DNA from: a virus | Length of the DNA stretch: 25,465 nucleotides | IMG/VR virus record: IMGVR_UViG_3300047392_000092 | Span: 1-25,465 of that record | Strand: one strand, 5' to 3' | Part shown: positions 1,150-25,465 of the stretch, in pieces | Layout of the letters: each line of letters opens with the position of its first letter | How positions within the stretch are numbered: position 1 is the first letter of the stretch | Made by a program: the position numbers and the translations under genes | Notes under the pieces: generated by a model | Databases searched by the model: none | What the model saw: only the letters and a program-made list of their open reading frames with translations | What the model was told of the DNA's origin: nothing

Positions 1150-3432
1150 TTAACTGTAAACTTTTGGATCACCCATTGCCATGCTCATAAAGTCCAATTG
1201 CGACTCAGCATCTTGTCCTGCAACTTCTGCGGCAATTTGCTGTGCTTTAACTTCATTTAGCTTGGCAACACTCATGTCCTTCTGATCTGATGGACTTGGT
1301 TGTTTGTTTGCTTGTGCTTGTTTACCTGCTTCAATCATTGCAACAACTTCATCGTTAGTTGGCAAGTATGTATTGCAGTCTTTTACGCCCAACACATACA
1401 ATGTGTCTTCAAATGGCTTTTTAACTTTCTTGTAAATCTCTGGAGTAAGTGAGCCAGCAGTTGCCATGTTTTGAACCATAGCATACAATTCTGTTTGGCA
1501 CTTTTGAATAATTTGTAAGCGTCCTAGTGCGTTCTCTTCAGACTTCATGCCTAGTGCAAGTTCCAAGTGGATCTGCTTGCGATCACAGAAGTTCATATCG
1601 TCCCAGGCTAGGAAGTCTAAAAACTCTGCCTTCTTGTCCGGGTGGCTACCTTGTGCTAATTTCTTAACACCATAGTCATCACCATACTGAATCAATGTAC
1701 GCCATACTAACCACAATGCTTCACGCAAGCCTTCGGCTGCATTACGCACAGTATTGTCTTGAATAATTTGGTTAGGGCTTAGAGCCATTTGCAACTTAAC
1801 ACCACTATTACCTGGTGCCATTACTTCTGGATTGAATACATCGCTAGGAGTAGTCATACCAACCATGGCCATTGTATCTTGTTGAATACGTTGCATAGCC
1901 ACTTCTAAGAACTGTAAGTTGCCACTTGGAGGAGGCATTTGGTAAATGTCTTTTGCAGGATCAAACTTGCTGTCTAAGATAAAGATAGCACTTTCGCCAT
2001 CCTGCATCATCTCAAAGTCAACACGGTCTGGCTTGACACCAATACGAGGAGTTGCTGTTAGCAAGCCCAACTGGATTTCTGCACGAGCGGCTGATGTGTT
2101 GTATTCCTGCATTGGAATAACAGATTCAGCAATACTCATACCATAAAAGTTGCCAGGTAGTGGCTTTGGACACATGTTAGCAACAGGAATAAATTCTACT
2201 TCTCTAGCACTGATAATGTAGCTACCACTGTAAATTAATTCTACTAGTTCTAGTTCGCCATCGCCATCAATGTCATACTTGTTCCATACTGTGACAATAG
2301 ACACTTGTCTACTGTCTGGATCAGCACTTGCGGCCGAACTAACTGGAATACCCATAACTGGCACAGAGTCACGTGCATGGATAGCCAAGTTGTTTAATAC
2401 TGAACCTGCTTGATAAGCACCGTTCATGTTGTATTCAGCAAATTGACGGAAGTTGTCTAAGTCGCCAACAATACCAGGATATAGTTCTGTTGCTTCTTGA
2501 ATTGTCATTGGATCGTAGTAACCACAGAATGGCTGATCCTTCATTTCTGGAACTGTAGGATCACAAATCCAGTAGTGTTGTGCAATAGGGTGGAATTTAA
2601 CGTTAATGTTATAGCCAGTTAGTTTATACTTGGCCTTGTAAGTTGTGTTTCTACGAATACTGTCTTGAATAATGCTTTCTTGTTCGTCCAAGTTACCTTG
2701 TACAATAGCATCACCTTGTTCACCAAACGCCTGTGTTGCTTCGTCACCTTCAACAAAGTCCATCATAAACTTTTGTGCAACACCTTTGGCATATTCTGTT
2801 TTTTGCTCGCCTAATAGTTGTGTTGCTTCTTCCATGACTTTCATCATGTCTACATTTTCTCTACGCTTGCTTTGGCGTAATGCTGTAAGTCCTGCTTCAG
2901 CGGCTTGCTGTTCAAACGCACGAAGTTGATCACTTGTGCCCGATGTTTCAACATAGCGAGTAATTTGTTCACGCACAGGTTTGATCATCATCATACCGTT
3001 TTTGTGCATTGCGGCATCCATAACCCAACGCTCTAAAATAAAGTGTGGATCATTCATTTGGTTAACAACTTTGCTGACCATTTGTGTTGCTTGTCTAGCC
3101 GCTACTTCATCTTCTTCACCGTCTGCCACAAAGTCAAAGTTAATTTCACCATTGGGAATAAGACCTTTAGTAATAACTGCTGTAGCATAATCAACAACTG
3201 GTTTTACACTAGGGTGAATGTAGTCAATGCCGTTTACAGGAGCAGTTGAATCTGTAACTGCTAAACACAAATAGTGATAATCTGACGCACGGTTAACTGC
3301 GTTCTTTGTGCCCAGATAACGCAAATAAGACGCCATTTTGACATCCATTTGGTTTTTCATGCGGACAAAAGTAGCATTTATCTTCTTGTTCTGATTGATG
3401 TCCTGCACGGGTATATTTTTAATATCCAACAT
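1150..3432 (-). CDS. Portal protein (head-tail connector), podovirus/P22-size
   Basis: A 760-residue protein lying two genes after the large terminase and followed by a probable scaffold gene, the standard place for the portal. Its length is close to the large portals of P22-like phages (about 725 aa) and well above most siphovirus portals. In family terms it would form the dodecameric ring at one capsid vertex through which DNA is packaged and ejected. The N-terminal third has long acidic and Gln-rich helical stretches (about residues 160-260). The C-terminal part is Gln/Ala-rich and helical, as in barrel-type portal ends. The start at ATG 3432 has an AAAGGAAA site about 10 nt upstream, and a CTAAATA motif lies 27 nt before it. 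Assignment rests on size, composition and synteny. Confidence 0.85.
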   Translation of the reverse strand: MLDIKNIPVQDINQNKKINATFVRMKNQMDVKMASYLRYLGTKNAVNRASDYHYLCLAVTDSTAPVNGIDYIHPSVKPVVDYATAVITKGLIPNGEINFDFVADGEEDEVAARQATQMVSKVVNQMNDPHFILERWVMDAAMHKNGMMMIKPVREQITRYVETSGTSDQLRAFEQQAAEAGLTALRQSKRRENVDMMKVMEEATQLLGEQKTEYAKGVAQKFMMDFVEGDEATQAFGEQGDAIVQGNLDEQESIIQDSIRRNTTYKAKYKLTGYNINVKFHPIAQHYWICDPTVPEMKDQPFCGYYDPMTIQEATELYPGIVGDLDNFRQFAEYNMNGAYQAGSVLNNLAIHARDSVPVMGIPVSSAASADPDSRQVSIVTVWNKYDIDGDGELELVELIYSGSYIISAREVEFIPVANMCPKPLPGNFYGMSIAESVIPMQEYNTSAARAEIQLGLLTATPRIGVKPDRVDFEMMQDGESAIFILDSKFDPAKDIYQMPPPSGNLQFLEVAMQRIQQDTMAMVGMTTPSDVFNPEVMAPGNSGVKLQMALSPNQIIQDNTVRNAAEGLREALWLVWRTLIQYGDDYGVKKLAQGSHPDKKAEFLDFLAWDDMNFCDRKQIHLELALGMKSEENALGRLQIIQKCQTELYAMVQNMATAGSLTPEIYKKVKKPFEDTLYVLGVKDCNTYLPTNDEVVAMIEAGKQAQANKQPSPSDQKDMSVAKLNEVKAQQIAAEVAGQDAESQLDFMSMAMGDPKVYS

Positions 3433-3459
3433 GAGTTTGGGTTTCCTTTACTGATATCT

Positions 3460-3466
3460 TATTTAG
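3460..3466 (-). promoter_or_regulatory. TAAATA late-type promoter motif for portal
   Basis: Minus-strand CTAAATA directly after the stop of the 90-residue gene and 27 nt before the portal ATG, with the AAAGGAAA ribosome site between. It would start a portal/117-aa transcription unit. Confidence 0.55.
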
Positions 3467-3468
3467 CA

Positions 3469-3741
3469 TCAATAATATTCACCTGGTAAAATGATACGCG
3501 GCTGGTGTTTCTTTGCTTTTGCTTGTTCTTCTTGCTGTCGAGACACATATTCTTGTGCTACTTTTAGATCACATGCATGGCAGTAATACGGGCCATCTTC
3601 TTCTTCAAGTTCGTAAATTGTGTGAGGAACCTGTGCTGTAATCATGGTATCCTCAAACACTTTTGCATGTTTTTCACACAATATAGCAGGAGCACGTTCG
3701 CCCACTGCTGTTAAGTATTTTCCATTTTTTTCGTGTGTCAT
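3469..3741 (-). CDS. Small protein with possible zinc-binding site, 90 aa
   Basis: Starts at ATG 3741, two bases after the large terminase stop, with AAGGATAAAC as ribosome site (it overlaps the end of the terminase gene). It contains two Cys/His pairs: C22-E-K-H25 in LCEKH, and C54-H55-A-C57 in YYCHAC, spaced about 30 residues apart. This is the layout of a small zinc ribbon or knuckle. The middle is acidic (YELEEEDG) and the C-terminus is Gln/Lys-rich. No named family recognised. Location between terminase and portal suggests a packaging or portal-assembly accessory, but nothing proves it. Confidence 0.85.
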   Translation of the reverse strand: MTHEKNGKYLTAVGERAPAILCEKHAKVFEDTMITAQVPHTIYELEEEDGPYYCHACDLKVAQEYVSRQQEEQAKAKKHQPRIILPGEYY

Positions 3742-3743
3742 GT

Positions 3744-5360
3744 TTATCCTTGTGGGTTATAACTTTTCTTCCAAGCAGGCAAGTTAGTCTCGTCTCTTGG
3801 TTTGTAATACTTGTCGCGAGCCGCTGCCATACGCTGTTGTGGACTGCGGTTATCCCAGGGTTCAGCAATGTTTTGCAAGCAAGCCAATAACGCATAACGA
3901 GCAGAGTCAATTGTGTCATCTGGGTCACTAAAGCGTCCACGCTCATCAACATAGTAGTTTTGTGCATCACTTAAAAACTGTGTGCAGTTTTCATTAACCA
4001 TTAAACTACCAATCTCTAGCATTTGACGCATTTGGTTAATGCCGTAACTCTTATGATTAGTTATGCGTCCTTCGCTATCTGGAGGATTCATAATGGGCTT
4101 GTGATACACATTAAGTTCATAACTTTCAAACAGTTCTCTAATACTACTGCTACTCATAGTGTATCGGCCAGGAGTAGATGCATCAGCAGGTAGCACAATA
4201 GGAGTGCCAAACACTTCAGGACGAAGTAAGTGATTAATATACTGGCTTGGCACAGCTTCTTCAATGCCTTGCACACAGATTTGTTTATGTAGATACGCAA
4301 CACGCTCGTAAGGCTCCCAATACATTAAAGTAATAACAGTTTGGTCATTAACAAGGCCCAAGTCAAGTGCAATAACACGCTGTATGTTTGGTATGCGTGT
4401 AAAATCAATTTGTCCTGTAGTATAAGTTGGCCATTCACGCAATTGGAACACAGCACCCTTACCCATAACAGGCTTACCAGCAATACGAGCTTCACGCTCA
4501 TGTGGCAAGTAATCTCGTTCAAGTTGTCGTCTTGTTTCTTTTAACAAGAATGGCTGACCCCATGGGTCGTATTCAGGCACATCATCCCACGACACACGAA
4601 TGTATTCATATCCTTCTTCTTTGTTCCAAAACTTGCTTACAAGTCCGTTCAAGCCTTTTAAGGGCGTAAACGAACACAGTACTTTACCTTGTGTGGTAGC
4701 AGTTCGCGTAACAATTTCAGAGAAAAAGTCATCTGGTGGTTGCTCATCAAATACAGCCAGATTTAATTTAAAACCTTGTAGTTGTCTAACCTCTTGCGTG
4801 TAGTTTGCAAAGAGGAGATAACTGTTAGCACCCGAGACATGCTTAATTTCAACACCAATACAGTTAGCCCCATCATTCCGCATAGTATCAACAACAATAC
4901 AATCACGAGGTATAGCACCTGTGCCCAAGTTTTCCGTAATTTTAACATCTTGTGTGCCAATAAGTTCATTTTGTAATACAAGTGCAACCTGGCTCCAGCC
5001 CTCACCTGCTACCATGCAAGTAATAGGCTTGTTAAAACGATAACCAGTCCACCAGTCAGGATATAAGCCAGTCAAGTGGTAAGCAGTTTCATAACAAGTG
5101 CTAACAGTTTTACCAATACGGTTTGCGGCTAGGATACCACGACGCTCGCTATTGCCTGTTTTGAAGAATGTTAATTGATGTTCAAAAGGTCTAAAGTATT
5201 TTAATTGGTTATACTTCATCTCATCTGCAACATCAATTACCAAGTCTTGCAACTGCAATTGCATGTTGGTAGGCATTTGAGCAAAAGTTTCAGGTGCTAC
5301 ATTATTCTTGTCTAAAGTATAACGCAAGGCACGAGCCATTAAAGTTTCTGTGCCCAGCAT
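3744..5360 (-). CDS. terL: Terminase large subunit (packaging ATPase/nuclease)
   Basis: A 538-residue DNA-packaging motor protein. The N-terminal ATPase has a Walker A-type loop at residues 78-85 (AANRIGKT), Walker B with the catalytic Glu at 201-206 (LAVFDE), and a coupling motif at 229-236 (CSFTPLKG). The C-terminal RNase H-like nuclease begins at ALDLG (331-335), with D333 as the probable first metal ligand. Further acidic candidates are in LPADAS and in SDPDDTIDSARYAL near the C-terminus, so both activities look intact. It would cut concatemeric DNA and pump it through the portal. The ATG at 5360 comes one base after the stop of the preceding 54-aa gene and has no clear ribosome site, suggesting coupled translation. 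A second ATG eight codons in is an alternative start. Confidence 0.97.
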   Translation of the reverse strand: MLGTETLMARALRYTLDKNNVAPETFAQMPTNMQLQLQDLVIDVADEMKYNQLKYFRPFEHQLTFFKTGNSERRGILAANRIGKTVSTCYETAYHLTGLYPDWWTGYRFNKPITCMVAGEGWSQVALVLQNELIGTQDVKITENLGTGAIPRDCIVVDTMRNDGANCIGVEIKHVSGANSYLLFANYTQEVRQLQGFKLNLAVFDEQPPDDFFSEIVTRTATTQGKVLCSFTPLKGLNGLVSKFWNKEEGYEYIRVSWDDVPEYDPWGQPFLLKETRRQLERDYLPHEREARIAGKPVMGKGAVFQLREWPTYTTGQIDFTRIPNIQRVIALDLGLVNDQTVITLMYWEPYERVAYLHKQICVQGIEEAVPSQYINHLLRPEVFGTPIVLPADASTPGRYTMSSSSIRELFESYELNVYHKPIMNPPDSEGRITNHKSYGINQMRQMLEIGSLMVNENCTQFLSDAQNYYVDERGRFSDPDDTIDSARYALLACLQNIAEPWDNRSPQQRMAAARDKYYKPRDETNLPAWKKSYNPQG

Positions 5361-6665: not shown

Positions 6666-7279
6666 CGAAGTCTAGTGCGTGTGTTTGGACGCATTGTTCG
6701 CTGTGCTGATCTAACGCCAGGAGCATTAGGAGGAGCAAAGCGATTAACAGGTGGAGCAATAGTGCCTGTGCCCATACCACCCATTAACTGCTGTGTGTTA
6801 GGGTTACCACTTAAATCACGCCCATATATGCCACCACCTGCTGGCATACCAAAGCCAATGCTTACATTAGGATTGGTTCGTGTTGCTTGTGTCGGGACAT
6901 AGTTTTGTTGTGTTGGTTGTTGGTTAGGGAATATTTGTTGTGCCACACCACCTACTTGTCCTAGTGCATTACCAACTTGAGGTAAACCAAATTGATTTAA
7001 CATCTGTCCGCCTGTGCCTAAAGCACCACCTACTAAGTTGCCAATACCGCCCATGCTTTTACCACCGCCCATACCATCTGTTGGTAATGGACTTGGAGCA
7101 GGTTGGTTGCCTTGAATGCTAATAGAATCGCCAGTGTATTCTTGTGGGGGCGGCATACCAAAACCAATGCTTACATTGGGATTGTCGCGTGTTGCCTGTG
7201 TTGGCACATAATTTTGTTGTGTAGGGCCTGCAGGACCAAACAAGCCTGCATCACCTATCCCGCTTGATACTGCACCCAT
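6662..7279 (-). CDS. Gly/Gln/Pro-rich protein with internal duplication, 205 aa
   Basis: Starts at ATG 7279, two bases after the stop of the preceding gene, with only a weak AAGAAG site. The protein is low in complexity: Gly-, Pro-, Gln- and Asn-rich with a basic, Arg-rich C-terminus (TMRPNTRTRLR). A unit of about 25 residues is duplicated almost exactly at residues 19-43 and 122-146 (QNYVPTQATR followed by NPNVSIGFGMP). The linker between has hydrophobic Gly-rich stretches (GGIGNLVGGALGTGG). The TR-x-NP core is shared with the neighbouring protein at 7563-7886. It may be a minor virion or assembly protein; no family recognised. Confidence 0.85.
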   Translation of the reverse strand: MGAVSSGIGDAGLFGPAGPTQQNYVPTQATRDNPNVSIGFGMPPPQEYTGDSISIQGNQPAPSPLPTDGMGGGKSMGGIGNLVGGALGTGGQMLNQFGLPQVGNALGQVGGVAQQIFPNQQPTQQNYVPTQATRTNPNVSIGFGMPAGGGIYGRDLSGNPNTQQLMGGMGTGTIAPPVNRFAPPNAPGVRSAQRTMRPNTRTRLR

Positions 7280-23157: not shown

Positions 23158-23412
23158 TTAGATACTCAGCTTACGCTCAAACTCCAGCTCAGGGTCTTCG
23201 TAACGCACACGCACTTCATGTTGCACGCCAGGGTATTCATCTGTAGGGAATAGTTTTGTAACTAACCGTTTGACTTCAACTGTGCATAAACCCGCCCGTT
23301 CGTCATCAAAAAACTGCTGTATTGCAGGGCATATAAAACGCACGCCGGCTGCCGGCACACGTGCCATAACAACTCTTAGTGAGTCTCTATTGCTTAATGG
23401 GTATGTAATCAT
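23158..23412 (-). CDS. Hypothetical protein, 84 aa
   Basis: Starts at ATG 23412 with the leader GAGGAACTGAA, nearly the same as the AAGGAACTGAA before the helicase gene. Alternating hydrophobic strands and charged loops (SLRVVMARVPAAGVRFICP, CTVEVKRLVTKLF, HEVRVRYEDPELEFERK) suggest a small alpha/beta fold. No motif recognised. It lies directly beside the iteron array, so a role in origin binding or control is possible but unsupported by any domain. Confidence 0.85.
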   Translation of the reverse strand: MITYPLSNRDSLRVVMARVPAAGVRFICPAIQQFFDDERAGLCTVEVKRLVTKLFPTDEYPGVQHEVRVRYEDPELEFERKLSI

Positions 23413-23450
23413 TTCAGTTCCTCTTTGTACAGTTATATATCAGTGTTTGT

Positions 23451-23565
23451 GTTACGCTGTTACTCTAGTTACGCTATTTGCTGTTTTGCACAACTTCTTT
23501 TTAATAATGAATTAAAAAGTTGCTGTAGTTCTTGTGAAATAGCGTAACATGCGTAACAGCGTAAC
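23451..23565. other. Iteron array with long inverted repeat: candidate replication origin
   Basis: The 155-bp gap between the 84-aa gene and the helicase stop. Five GCGTAAC units: three on the plus strand (23542-23548, 23551-23557, 23559-23565) and two inverted (23451-23457, 23468-23474). They build 29-base arms (23451-23479 and 23537-23565) that are complementary except for four central bases. The arms enclose about 57 bases of AT-rich DNA containing a further hairpin (CAAC...TTTTTAAT with ATTAAAAAGTTG, 23491-23522). Iterons flanking an AT-rich segment beside a superfamily 3 helicase gene are a classical origin layout. A terminator or repressor operator are the alternatives. Confidence 0.6.
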
Positions 23566-23567
23566 AG

Positions 23568-25244
23568 TTACAGGATCAACAAATCATCCTTTTTAGTATC
23601 AACAGGGATAGCTGTGCTAATACGATCCCAAGGGAATATACGAGCCATGCTTTGTGCTTTAAGCCTAAACACATGCCCTTGTGGTTGTGCCAAACTATGT
23701 CCCGACATAACAATATCAATACGGTCTCTTGCATGTTCAGTGTATTCAATTCTATTCCGATTCAAATACTCTTTCCACTTTTTCTTAACTACTCTAGTAT
23801 CTGCTTTTTTGCCATCCTGTAGTAGTGTAATAATGTCCTGTATAATTTTAACATTAATAACACCGCAACTGTTAAAGATCGGCAACAATTGATCAAACAC
23901 AGTATCAAGATTGCTCTTTTGGTCTTCAAAGCGTTGCTTGTAGTCCTCACCGTGTAGCGGGGGCAATACGTTCATTTGATGCACATTAAACTGTGTAATA
24001 ATAGCACCTAAAAAACGTGCCAACAACTTTCTGTCTTTAACTTTGCTAGCAATTTCATTTGCACGTGTTTTTGCTGTTTCAGCATCGCAACCTTCGCGTA
24101 GCATAATTTCATCCAGTAGCGGGATATTAGTGTTAATAACTGAGTAGCGTCTGTCTTCACCACCCGATCCTGAGCCTGATAACTTAAACACACCCAACAA
24201 GTTGTTACTTGTTGCTACAATGCTGTAGTTTCTATCTGCAGGGTAAGCATCAACACCCTTGCGTTCTACACGTGTTTCTAAGCCACCAGTTGCTTTTTTC
24301 ATTTTGCCTGCTGGCAGTTCTTTTTCAGTAGGCTCATCAAAGTGTACTATAACTGCTGTTTCCCAAGTGCCATTAAAGCCATCATCAAGTTCTTTAGCCG
24401 CTGCCAAAACTACGCAGTTTTGCGTAAAGATTGTTTTAGCCAGTTCCATGTAAAGTGTCTTACCATTACCACCGGGACTGCCCCCTAGGTCCATGTTAGG
24501 CGTGTTTGCTACACGCTCAGGAAACAATAACTTGTAAGTGATCCATTGCTTCAAGTAATCAATGTTTTCTTGCTTGCCCCCACCAATACAATAAAACAAC
24601 AAGTCAAAGTCTGGATCATAAGGTTCATCGCCAAAGTCAGGCTCAAGCCAAAAACTTGAAATAACTTTTGCTTTGTTGTAAACTTTGTCCTTTGCCCATT
24701 TGGCATATAAAAAGCTAGCAGTATCAGAATAGTGTGTGTAGTTCTTTGTAATAAACAACTTGTGTATATTGTCATTAGCATTAAACAAATACTTGTCAAT
24801 CAGTTTACTAAAAGCACTTGTTGCTCTTGCTCCATCAAAGCTCTGAAACACAGGATTAATAACGTTTAAATTGTTATCACCAAAGTCCATGCAATATGTG
24901 TATTTGTTGTTAATCACATTGTAACTAATGTGGTATTTTTTAATTGCATCCAGTAGCAGTGGTTCAACTTCTTTCCATTTGTAGTTGTTTGCGGCTTCTT
25001 GATCTGCATCCAGTTCGCTTTTGTCTGCTTTTATTGCATCAATTTTCTCTTGCACTTGTCTAACAATGTAGCGTTGTGCAGTAATTTCTGCTTCAAAGTC
25101 TTCAAGTGCTTGACCTTCAAGCACACTAACTTCTTTGCTGTATCTGCGTTCAATGTCTTCTAACTTGTCTTGTTGATTGCCTAACTCGCCCCGCAGTTCT
25201 TTTAACCGTTCGTCAAGTTGTTGTTGTGTTGTTTTTCTAGCCAT
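23568..25244 (-). CDS. Superfamily 3 replicative helicase (P4 alpha/D5-type), 558 aa
   Basis: Residues 1-85 are a charged, Gln/Glu/Lys-rich coiled coil (LDERLKELRGELGNQQDKLEDIERR). The ATPase core follows: Walker A GGSPGGNGKT (254-263), Walker B VIVHFDE (298-304), motif C YSIVATSNN (340-348) with the sensor Asn, and a basic DRRY (364-367) that may act in trans. These are the marks of SF3 helicases found with P4-type primases. No primase active site (zinc finger or Asp-x-Asp plus His) was visible in the N-terminus, so this is a helicase-only form, or the primase is a separate gene. It would form a hexamer that unwinds the origin. Start ATG 25244 after AAGGAACTGAA. Confidence 0.93.
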   Translation of the reverse strand: MARKTTQQQLDERLKELRGELGNQQDKLEDIERRYSKEVSVLEGQALEDFEAEITAQRYIVRQVQEKIDAIKADKSELDADQEAANNYKWKEVEPLLLDAIKKYHISYNVINNKYTYCMDFGDNNLNVINPVFQSFDGARATSAFSKLIDKYLFNANDNIHKLFITKNYTHYSDTASFLYAKWAKDKVYNKAKVISSFWLEPDFGDEPYDPDFDLLFYCIGGGKQENIDYLKQWITYKLLFPERVANTPNMDLGGSPGGNGKTLYMELAKTIFTQNCVVLAAAKELDDGFNGTWETAVIVHFDEPTEKELPAGKMKKATGGLETRVERKGVDAYPADRNYSIVATSNNLLGVFKLSGSGSGGEDRRYSVINTNIPLLDEIMLREGCDAETAKTRANEIASKVKDRKLLARFLGAIITQFNVHQMNVLPPLHGEDYKQRFEDQKSNLDTVFDQLLPIFNSCGVINVKIIQDIITLLQDGKKADTRVVKKKWKEYLNRNRIEYTEHARDRIDIVMSGHSLAQPQGHVFRLKAQSMARIFPWDRISTAIPVDTKKDDLLIL

Positions 25245-25253
25245 TTCAGTTCC

Positions 25254-25451
25254 TTAAACTAAATCGTATTTCTCTTTAAGACGTTTCGTTGTCTCGATAA
25301 ATTTATTTACAGGCGTTGCTTCTCGCAAGCAGTCCTTGCCATGTCGTTCTCGTAGCAAGTGTATAACACTTCCCATTGTAATTGGCTTGCTAACTTGCCC
25401 GCCGTGTGTCCAAACAGTTGCCGCATCACCTGCTGTTTTTTGGCTCATCAT
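25254..25451 (-). CDS. Hypothetical protein, 65 aa or longer, at right edge
   Basis: Frame to TAA at 25254-25256, ending 9 nt before the helicase ATG. ATG codons at 25451 and 25448 are possible starts, but neither has a ribosome site, and the frame remains open to the window edge, so the true start may lie outside. The protein is basic and helical at the C-terminus (IHLLRERHGKDCLREATPVNKFIETTKRLKEKY). No family recognised; probably co-transcribed with the helicase. Confidence 0.7.
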   Translation of the reverse strand: MMSQKTAGDAATVWTHGGQVSKPITMGSVIHLLRERHGKDCLREATPVNKFIETTKRLKEKYDLV

Positions 25452-25465
25452 GCCTGTAGTAACGT

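Follow-up and report, generated by a model that had tools for sequence, protein, structure and literature searches.

Helicase-initiators and their iterons

The C-terminal domains of SaPI Rep and of Cch2 bind iterons located directly downstream of their own genes, and SaPI Rep apparently binds as two hexamers (PMC7581432). In PICIs the origin is 3' of rep and always has an AT-rich region with an iteron set on either side, and a 2018 paper described this two-set layout 3' of the initiator gene as absent from every known bacterial replicon other than PICIs (PMC6092414). Recognition of a stem-loop has been proposed for pRN1-like proteins and for Bordetella phage BIP-1 (PMC4234260). In the Vibrio cholerae PLE, the swapping of replication modules has been attributed to the pressure exerted by the nuclease Odn (PMC8263062).

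The locus described here lies in a viral record of 25,465 bases, analysed as a whole and called the window, and it contains an array of short repeats next to a helicase gene. From sequence comparison, and by analogy with the systems above, it is highly probable that a tailed phage starts its replication at this array: the helicase would bind the iterons, the core would melt and forks would leave in both directions.

The array and its surroundings

Almost all genes of the window are on the minus strand. Since it encodes a terminase, an SU10-type portal and virion structural proteins, the window is assigned to a tailed phage and not to a satellite. In the direction of the genes, the end of a primase gene is followed by the helicase gene, the repeat region and a gene for an 84-aa protein, the gap between the last two genes being 155 bp long (23413-23567). 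The features are the following:

23158..23412, minus strand: 84-aa protein, function not assigned; next gene after the candidate origin in most relatives
23450..23479, plus strand: inverted-repeat arm distal to the helicase (2 exact units and 1 degenerate unit)
23451..23457, minus strand: iteron GCGTAAC
23459..23465, minus strand: degenerate iteron GAGTAAC (GTTACTC on the plus strand), read from the sequence
23468..23474, minus strand: iteron GCGTAAC
23480..23536, no strand: 57-nt AT-rich core, presumed melting site, with an inner imperfect hairpin (23490-23526)
23537..23566, plus strand: inverted-repeat arm next to the helicase stop (3 exact units)
23542..23548, plus strand: iteron GCGTAAC
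23551..23557, plus strand: iteron GCGTAAC
23559..23565, plus strand: iteron GCGTAAC
23568..25244, minus strand: 558-aa SF3/D5-type AAA+ helicase, presumed initiator (PF19263, PHROG DNA primase)
25254..25463, minus strand: C-terminal part of the primase gene, truncated by the edge of the contig; near-identical to the primase end of the relative L009

The array thus has six units, five of them exact copies of GCGTAAC and one degenerate, with three on either side of the AT-rich core in opposite orientations. The first-pass annotation of this DNA had described the exact units, two on one strand and three on the other, and these were confirmed; the degenerate sixth had not been listed. The inverted-repeat arms, put there at 29 bp, measure 30 nt each, with 90% complementarity, a spacing of 57 nt and mismatches confined to the central four bases of the arm, and the hairpin attributed to the core was found at 23490-23505 / 23511-23526. 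The helicase stop occupies 23570-23568 and the first unit begins at the third base beyond it, in agreement with an arm said to start 3 nt past the stop.

GCGTAAC occurs 8 times in the window against 2.35 expected, a count reached in none of 100 shuffles (0/100); five of the eight copies lie inside the 115-bp stretch and the remaining three are scattered singly. A search for further GCGTAAC clusters, which had been proposed as a check, found none, and neither this count nor an inverted-repeat scan revealed a second array in the window, whose contig is probably incomplete. The inverted repeat scores 22.5, against 13.0 for the runner-up among all 200-nt stretches of the window and 11.5 for the top score in 100 dinucleotide shuffles of the gap. 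A cumulative GC skew, also proposed earlier, shows no sign change at the array and is uninformative on this 25-kb fragment.

The array has folding z-scores of -8.2 as RNA and -7.1 as DNA. The strong predicted RNA fold would suit an RNA element or a transcription terminator of the helicase gene, the latter having been named as an alternative in the first-pass annotation. We rejected this explanation as highly improbable, as no terminator-like site was called in the gap, no Rfam family matched at its curated score, and the relatives described below carry uncompensated changes and unpaired extra units.

The helicase

For the 558-aa product, matches were obtained to PF19263 (DUF5906; E=9e-12) and to primase families of PHROG, and it contains the motifs GGSPGGNGK and FDEP, which on our own reading we take to be those expected of a D5/SF3-type AAA+ helicase. 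Its open reading frame carries the PF19263 match only, the primase being a separate gene; the L009 primase has a weak PriCT_2 match. Residues ~426-558 are the presumed iteron-binding part, a proposal based on the comparisons given below. AlphaFold modelled the whole helicase with a pLDDT of 44.6, and the model of the C-terminal region is winged-helix-like at low confidence (mean pLDDT 49); many winged-helix proteins occur in its Foldseek and VIA lists, none of them significant, the best Foldseek E being 0.13. In profile comparisons, this region showed no homology to a DUF3987 helicase, a VapE-type helicase or a GIY-YIG protein.

Among annotated phages and plasmids the helicase had no match at useful significance, and no close relatives were found in the genome-contig collection. 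Manatee Spring phage MW202484 was considered as a relative, with 49% shared in the terminase, but was discarded because no such helicase is annotated there.

Conservation of the layout in relatives

All close relatives are uncultured contigs from viral metagenomes, and a wider set of loci was obtained by scans with the 84-aa protein (13 loci) and with the relatives' small terminase (31 loci). In the viral contigs L009 and L010, a helicase 69% identical to that of the window is followed by an array of GTGTAG units, a core and inverted CTACAC units, and then by a homologue of the 84-aa protein; the array is 3 + 3 in L009, and in L010 one left unit has decayed. The core CTACAGCAACTTTTTAAT-n7-TAAAAAGAAGTTGT is common to the window, L009 and L010 despite their differing iterons. 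L015 and L016 have a similar region with GTGTAG(G/C) units and a different core. An additional cluster of three units in direct orientation is also present in this kind of region; in L015 it consists of GTGTAG units downstream of the 3+3 array (6788-6822). The relatives keep the position of the array, its inverted layout and a similar core length, whereas the sequence of the repeats differs:

GTGTAG (GTGTAGG): L009, L010, L015
GGTGCGTA: L031, L058
AGCGTA: L035
AGTGTAGTA, three perfect 9-mers per side: L038
CAGCGTAG: L054
TTTACAG or TTTACAT, beside VapE-type helicases: L022, L046, L024

In L009, L010, L015, L031, L035 and L058 the region is also directly 3' of the helicase gene. As a strict iteron test, at least two forward and at least two inverted copies of one 6-9-mer were looked for, and such sets were found in the window, in these six loci, in L038 and in Bordetella phage BPP-1; in the 7-mer-or-longer version of the test, none of 400 random stretches contained one. 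At least three helicase classes stand beside arrays (PF19263, VapE-like PF05272 and DUF3987), and the VapE-type and most DUF3987-type regions fail the strict test despite visible repeats, so on these comparisons the claim of an iteron array appears firmest for the PF19263 class. L025, L050 and L036, with other helicases, have weaker or unclear arrays.

These relatives bear on a second explanation, in which the array would be a stem-loop origin of the pRN1 type, with hairpin or cruciform extrusion as the relevant property and the repeats in the arms incidental. The array does fold stably both as DNA and as RNA, and in pRN1 a 21-nt stem with a 58-nt loop, 3' of the primase-SF3 gene, is required for replication and is retained by relatives as structure without sequence (PMC4234260). 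Against it, each arm is itself tandemly repeated, the arm changes between L009 and L010 disrupt pairs and are uncompensated, the additional three-unit cluster of L015 is in direct orientation, and L038 and L054 have extra units outside the stem. Iterons recognised as duplex DNA and placed in inverted orientation would explain the tandem arms, the uncompensated changes and the extra units, and the stem itself follows from that orientation; a stem-loop origin is, on balance, unlikely. In the comparison of relatives for compensatory changes, proposed in the first pass, the L009/L010 changes in the arms came out as uncompensated; concerted unit changes elsewhere do look compensatory, the units being inverted.

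The iterons beside unrelated helicase classes (the PF19263-type loci, L038 and L054) share a GYGTA-like core, which may reflect convergence, an array inherited from a common ancestor, or an extra binder that they share. When the units are read by this core, those of the window face outward and those of the other PF19263 relatives inward.

Which protein the iterons follow

Comparisons among the relatives point to the helicase, mainly its C-terminal part, as the protein that iteron type tracks, and not to the 84-aa protein or the small terminase. L009 and L031 have 84-aa homologues that are 98% identical and small terminases that are 97% identical, but their helicases are no more than 27% identical and they have different iterons. 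Conversely, L031 and L058 have 84-aa homologues of 33% identity and helicases that are ~74% identical over 172 aa (59% over the whole 235-aa overlap), and their iteron is identical. In the helicase homologue of L031 (629-2416), whose frame is intact, GGTGRD replaces GGNGKT and VSEK replaces FDEP, so that its ATPase motifs look degenerate.

The limits of DNA homology follow the same lines. L031 and L058 share L031:1931-2551, that is, the helicase C-terminus and the array only; homology between L031 and L035 stops at L031:2548, and that between L031 and L009 (91%) begins at L031:2552. The last L031 iteron ends at 2552, which puts these breaks at most a few bases away from where the array ends on its outer side. 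The helicase is also mosaic: over residues 1-200 the window groups with L009, and in the remainder L009 groups with L015 (chi-square p=1e-6), with which it shares its iteron, whereas the 84-aa protein, in contrast to the helicase C-terminus (Fisher p=9e-7), groups the window with L015, these statistics being drawn from three taxa only and from sites that are not independent. Finally, whole sets of units have changed in concert between close relatives. The five copies of TGCGTA in L031 correspond to five copies of AGCGTA in L035, with helicases 88% identical, and TTACAG iterons in L022 correspond to TTACAT in L024, with helicases 87% identical, while the core of L022/L024 retains CAG (TACAGTATA).

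Physical linkage can explain part of the identity, homology-break and mosaic evidence, but not the concerted changes. Linkage alone would let the helicase gene, whose 3' end adjoins the array, take the iterons with it, yet the 84-aa gene, similarly close, does not travel along. An iteron determined purely by the helicase leaves the shared GYGTA-like core unexplained. The constant layout and place of the array, together with this covariation, come from sequence comparison, and they favour the earlier proposals that the array is an origin and that the helicase reads GCGTAAC. The 84-aa protein, suggested as an alternative binder, varies independently of the iterons.

This independent variation also weighs against an operator array through which the 84-aa protein or the helicase would repress the 84-aa gene and what follows. 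Iteron arrays often serve as operators too in plasmid replicons, and the array does lie just upstream of the 84-aa start codon, but no promoter-like site was called in the gap; the operator reading is very unlikely, and an operator of the 84-aa protein was rejected. Autorepression by the helicase could exist alongside origin function. Likewise, a packaging (pac) or recombination site might be suspected from the small terminase, which is encoded within ~1 kb downstream in many relatives. This possibility was rejected as extremely improbable, given the differing arrays beside the near-identical small terminases of L009 and L031, and given that in the window the array persists together with a terminase and a portal from other families.

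Between the window (1150-5360) and L009 (10280-12978), terminases and portals are of different families and the replication module is shared (helicase 69%). Therefore, the module moves between structural backbones.

Proposed mechanism and possible exchange of specificity

An origin of this type would work as follows, if binding, double-hexamer loading, melting and bidirectional forks resemble what is described for SaPI Rep, Cch2, P4 alpha and pRN1, from which we infer them. Helicase subunits would bind the GCGTAAC iterons, three per side and inverted, through their C-terminal region, and two oppositely oriented helicase assemblies would be loaded and would then melt the AT-rich core between them. 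The separate phage primase, encoded just upstream of the helicase, would prime synthesis, and two forks would depart, one in each direction.

The comparisons further suggest that each virus's helicase is exchanged along with the repeats that match it, and that the two are re-tuned jointly, as a lock would be with its key. More tentatively, the helicase C-terminus and the array may be swapped as a unit, with a junction just outside the array, between genomes otherwise alike, and the iteron sets may be rewritten in concert; we regard this as a possibility and with some doubt. If true, the initiator-iteron specificity of free-living phages would evolve fast, as a trait of incompatibility or escape, for example against rival phages or origin-directed nucleases, as shown for PLE versus Odn. 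In L009, the primase gene is preceded, at a distance of some hundreds of bases, by a gene for a GIY-YIG-type protein (3878-4669; weak Pfam match). Odn, which cuts PLE origins, contains a domain belonging to that superfamily. Any link between this gene and origin exchange is speculation.

Arrays in cultured phages

In Bordetella phage BPP-1 (NC_005357.1 26607-26712; L060 608-713), an AT-rich core of ~70 nt with a hairpin has two TTTGCCTCG-type 9-mers on one side and two copies in inverted orientation on the other, in a non-coding stretch before bbp27 and downstream of the primase gene bbp29. This array, apparently unannotated, is a likely origin in a cultured phage, and its 9-bp repeats mean that iterons do occur in at least one member of the phage class treated in PMC4234260. 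The layout is not universal, since none of nine other sampled cultured phages with D5-type primase-helicases passed the strict test in the 600 nt after the gene (432 nt for Mae-JY02). Two of them have inverted-repeat arms with repeat-like sequence: Microcystis phage Mae-JY02 (L069, after 4147; 42-nt arms, GGGAAGAT...) and Mycobacterium phage Prithvi (L061, after 4072; 23-nt arms, GAGTAGTAC...). These repeats lie within ~160 nt after the primase-helicase gene and look similar, although they fail the strict test.

The kind of array is already known from SaPIs and PICIs, and its presence in tailed phages, as deduced from sequence, contradicts the exclusivity stated in PMC6092414. Since the window, its relatives and BPP-1 show the same organisation in tailed phages, the two-set layout is no hallmark of satellites. 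In the literature searched, which took in few subscription journals and not the original papers on the SaPI origin, no description of a two-set iteron origin for such phages was found. Nature provides a ready series of helicases paired with different iterons (GCGTAAC, GTGTAGG, GGTGCGTA and AGCGTA among them), in part on nearly identical backbones, from which to learn which residues of an SF3-type initiator read which bases, and the series also suits the question of whether origin specificity leads to phage incompatibility. In addition, the layout provides a simple rule for finding unannotated phage origins.

Comparison with known systems

The first-pass annotation had proposed a P4-type model; its idea of a helicase acting on iterons held, although SaPI/PICI and Cch2 origins, and not P4 itself, provide the closest model. 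In the satellite phage P4, whose origin has two separated repeat regions, the alpha protein carries a bacterial-type primase domain in the same polypeptide, whereas the window has a separate primase gene. P4 alpha and the window's helicase belong to the same broad helicase-initiator class, and the winged-helix domain of the former binds origin repeats (PMC4234260). The Vibrio cholerae PLE shows a comparable restructuring of iterons and swapping of replication modules within one element family (PMC8263062), but its initiator, RepA_N, is of another family. As in the window, pRN1 has a hairpin-forming element of ~100 nt, with a 58-nt loop, 3' of a primase-SF3 gene, and its sequence diverges while the structure stays (PMC4234260); for the pRN1 stem-loop and the one predicted for BIP-1, however, the authors report no iteron structure, whereas the arms in the window consist of iterons.

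SCCmec Cch2 is closer, being a D5-like helicase with short iterons directly downstream and C-terminal binding (PMC7581432), although there the iterons are three direct AAGTG copies, without a second inverted set. In SaPIs and PICIs, as in the window, the origin region is directly 3' of the helicase-initiator gene, and Rep reads its iterons through its C-terminal domain (PMC6092414, PMC7581432). The iterons of the window appear to track the C-terminal part of the helicase. Unlike these satellites, the phage of the window has its own terminase, portal and virion genes, and its iterons are of ~7-9 bp, set in inverted 3+3 arms and followed by the conserved 84-aa gene.
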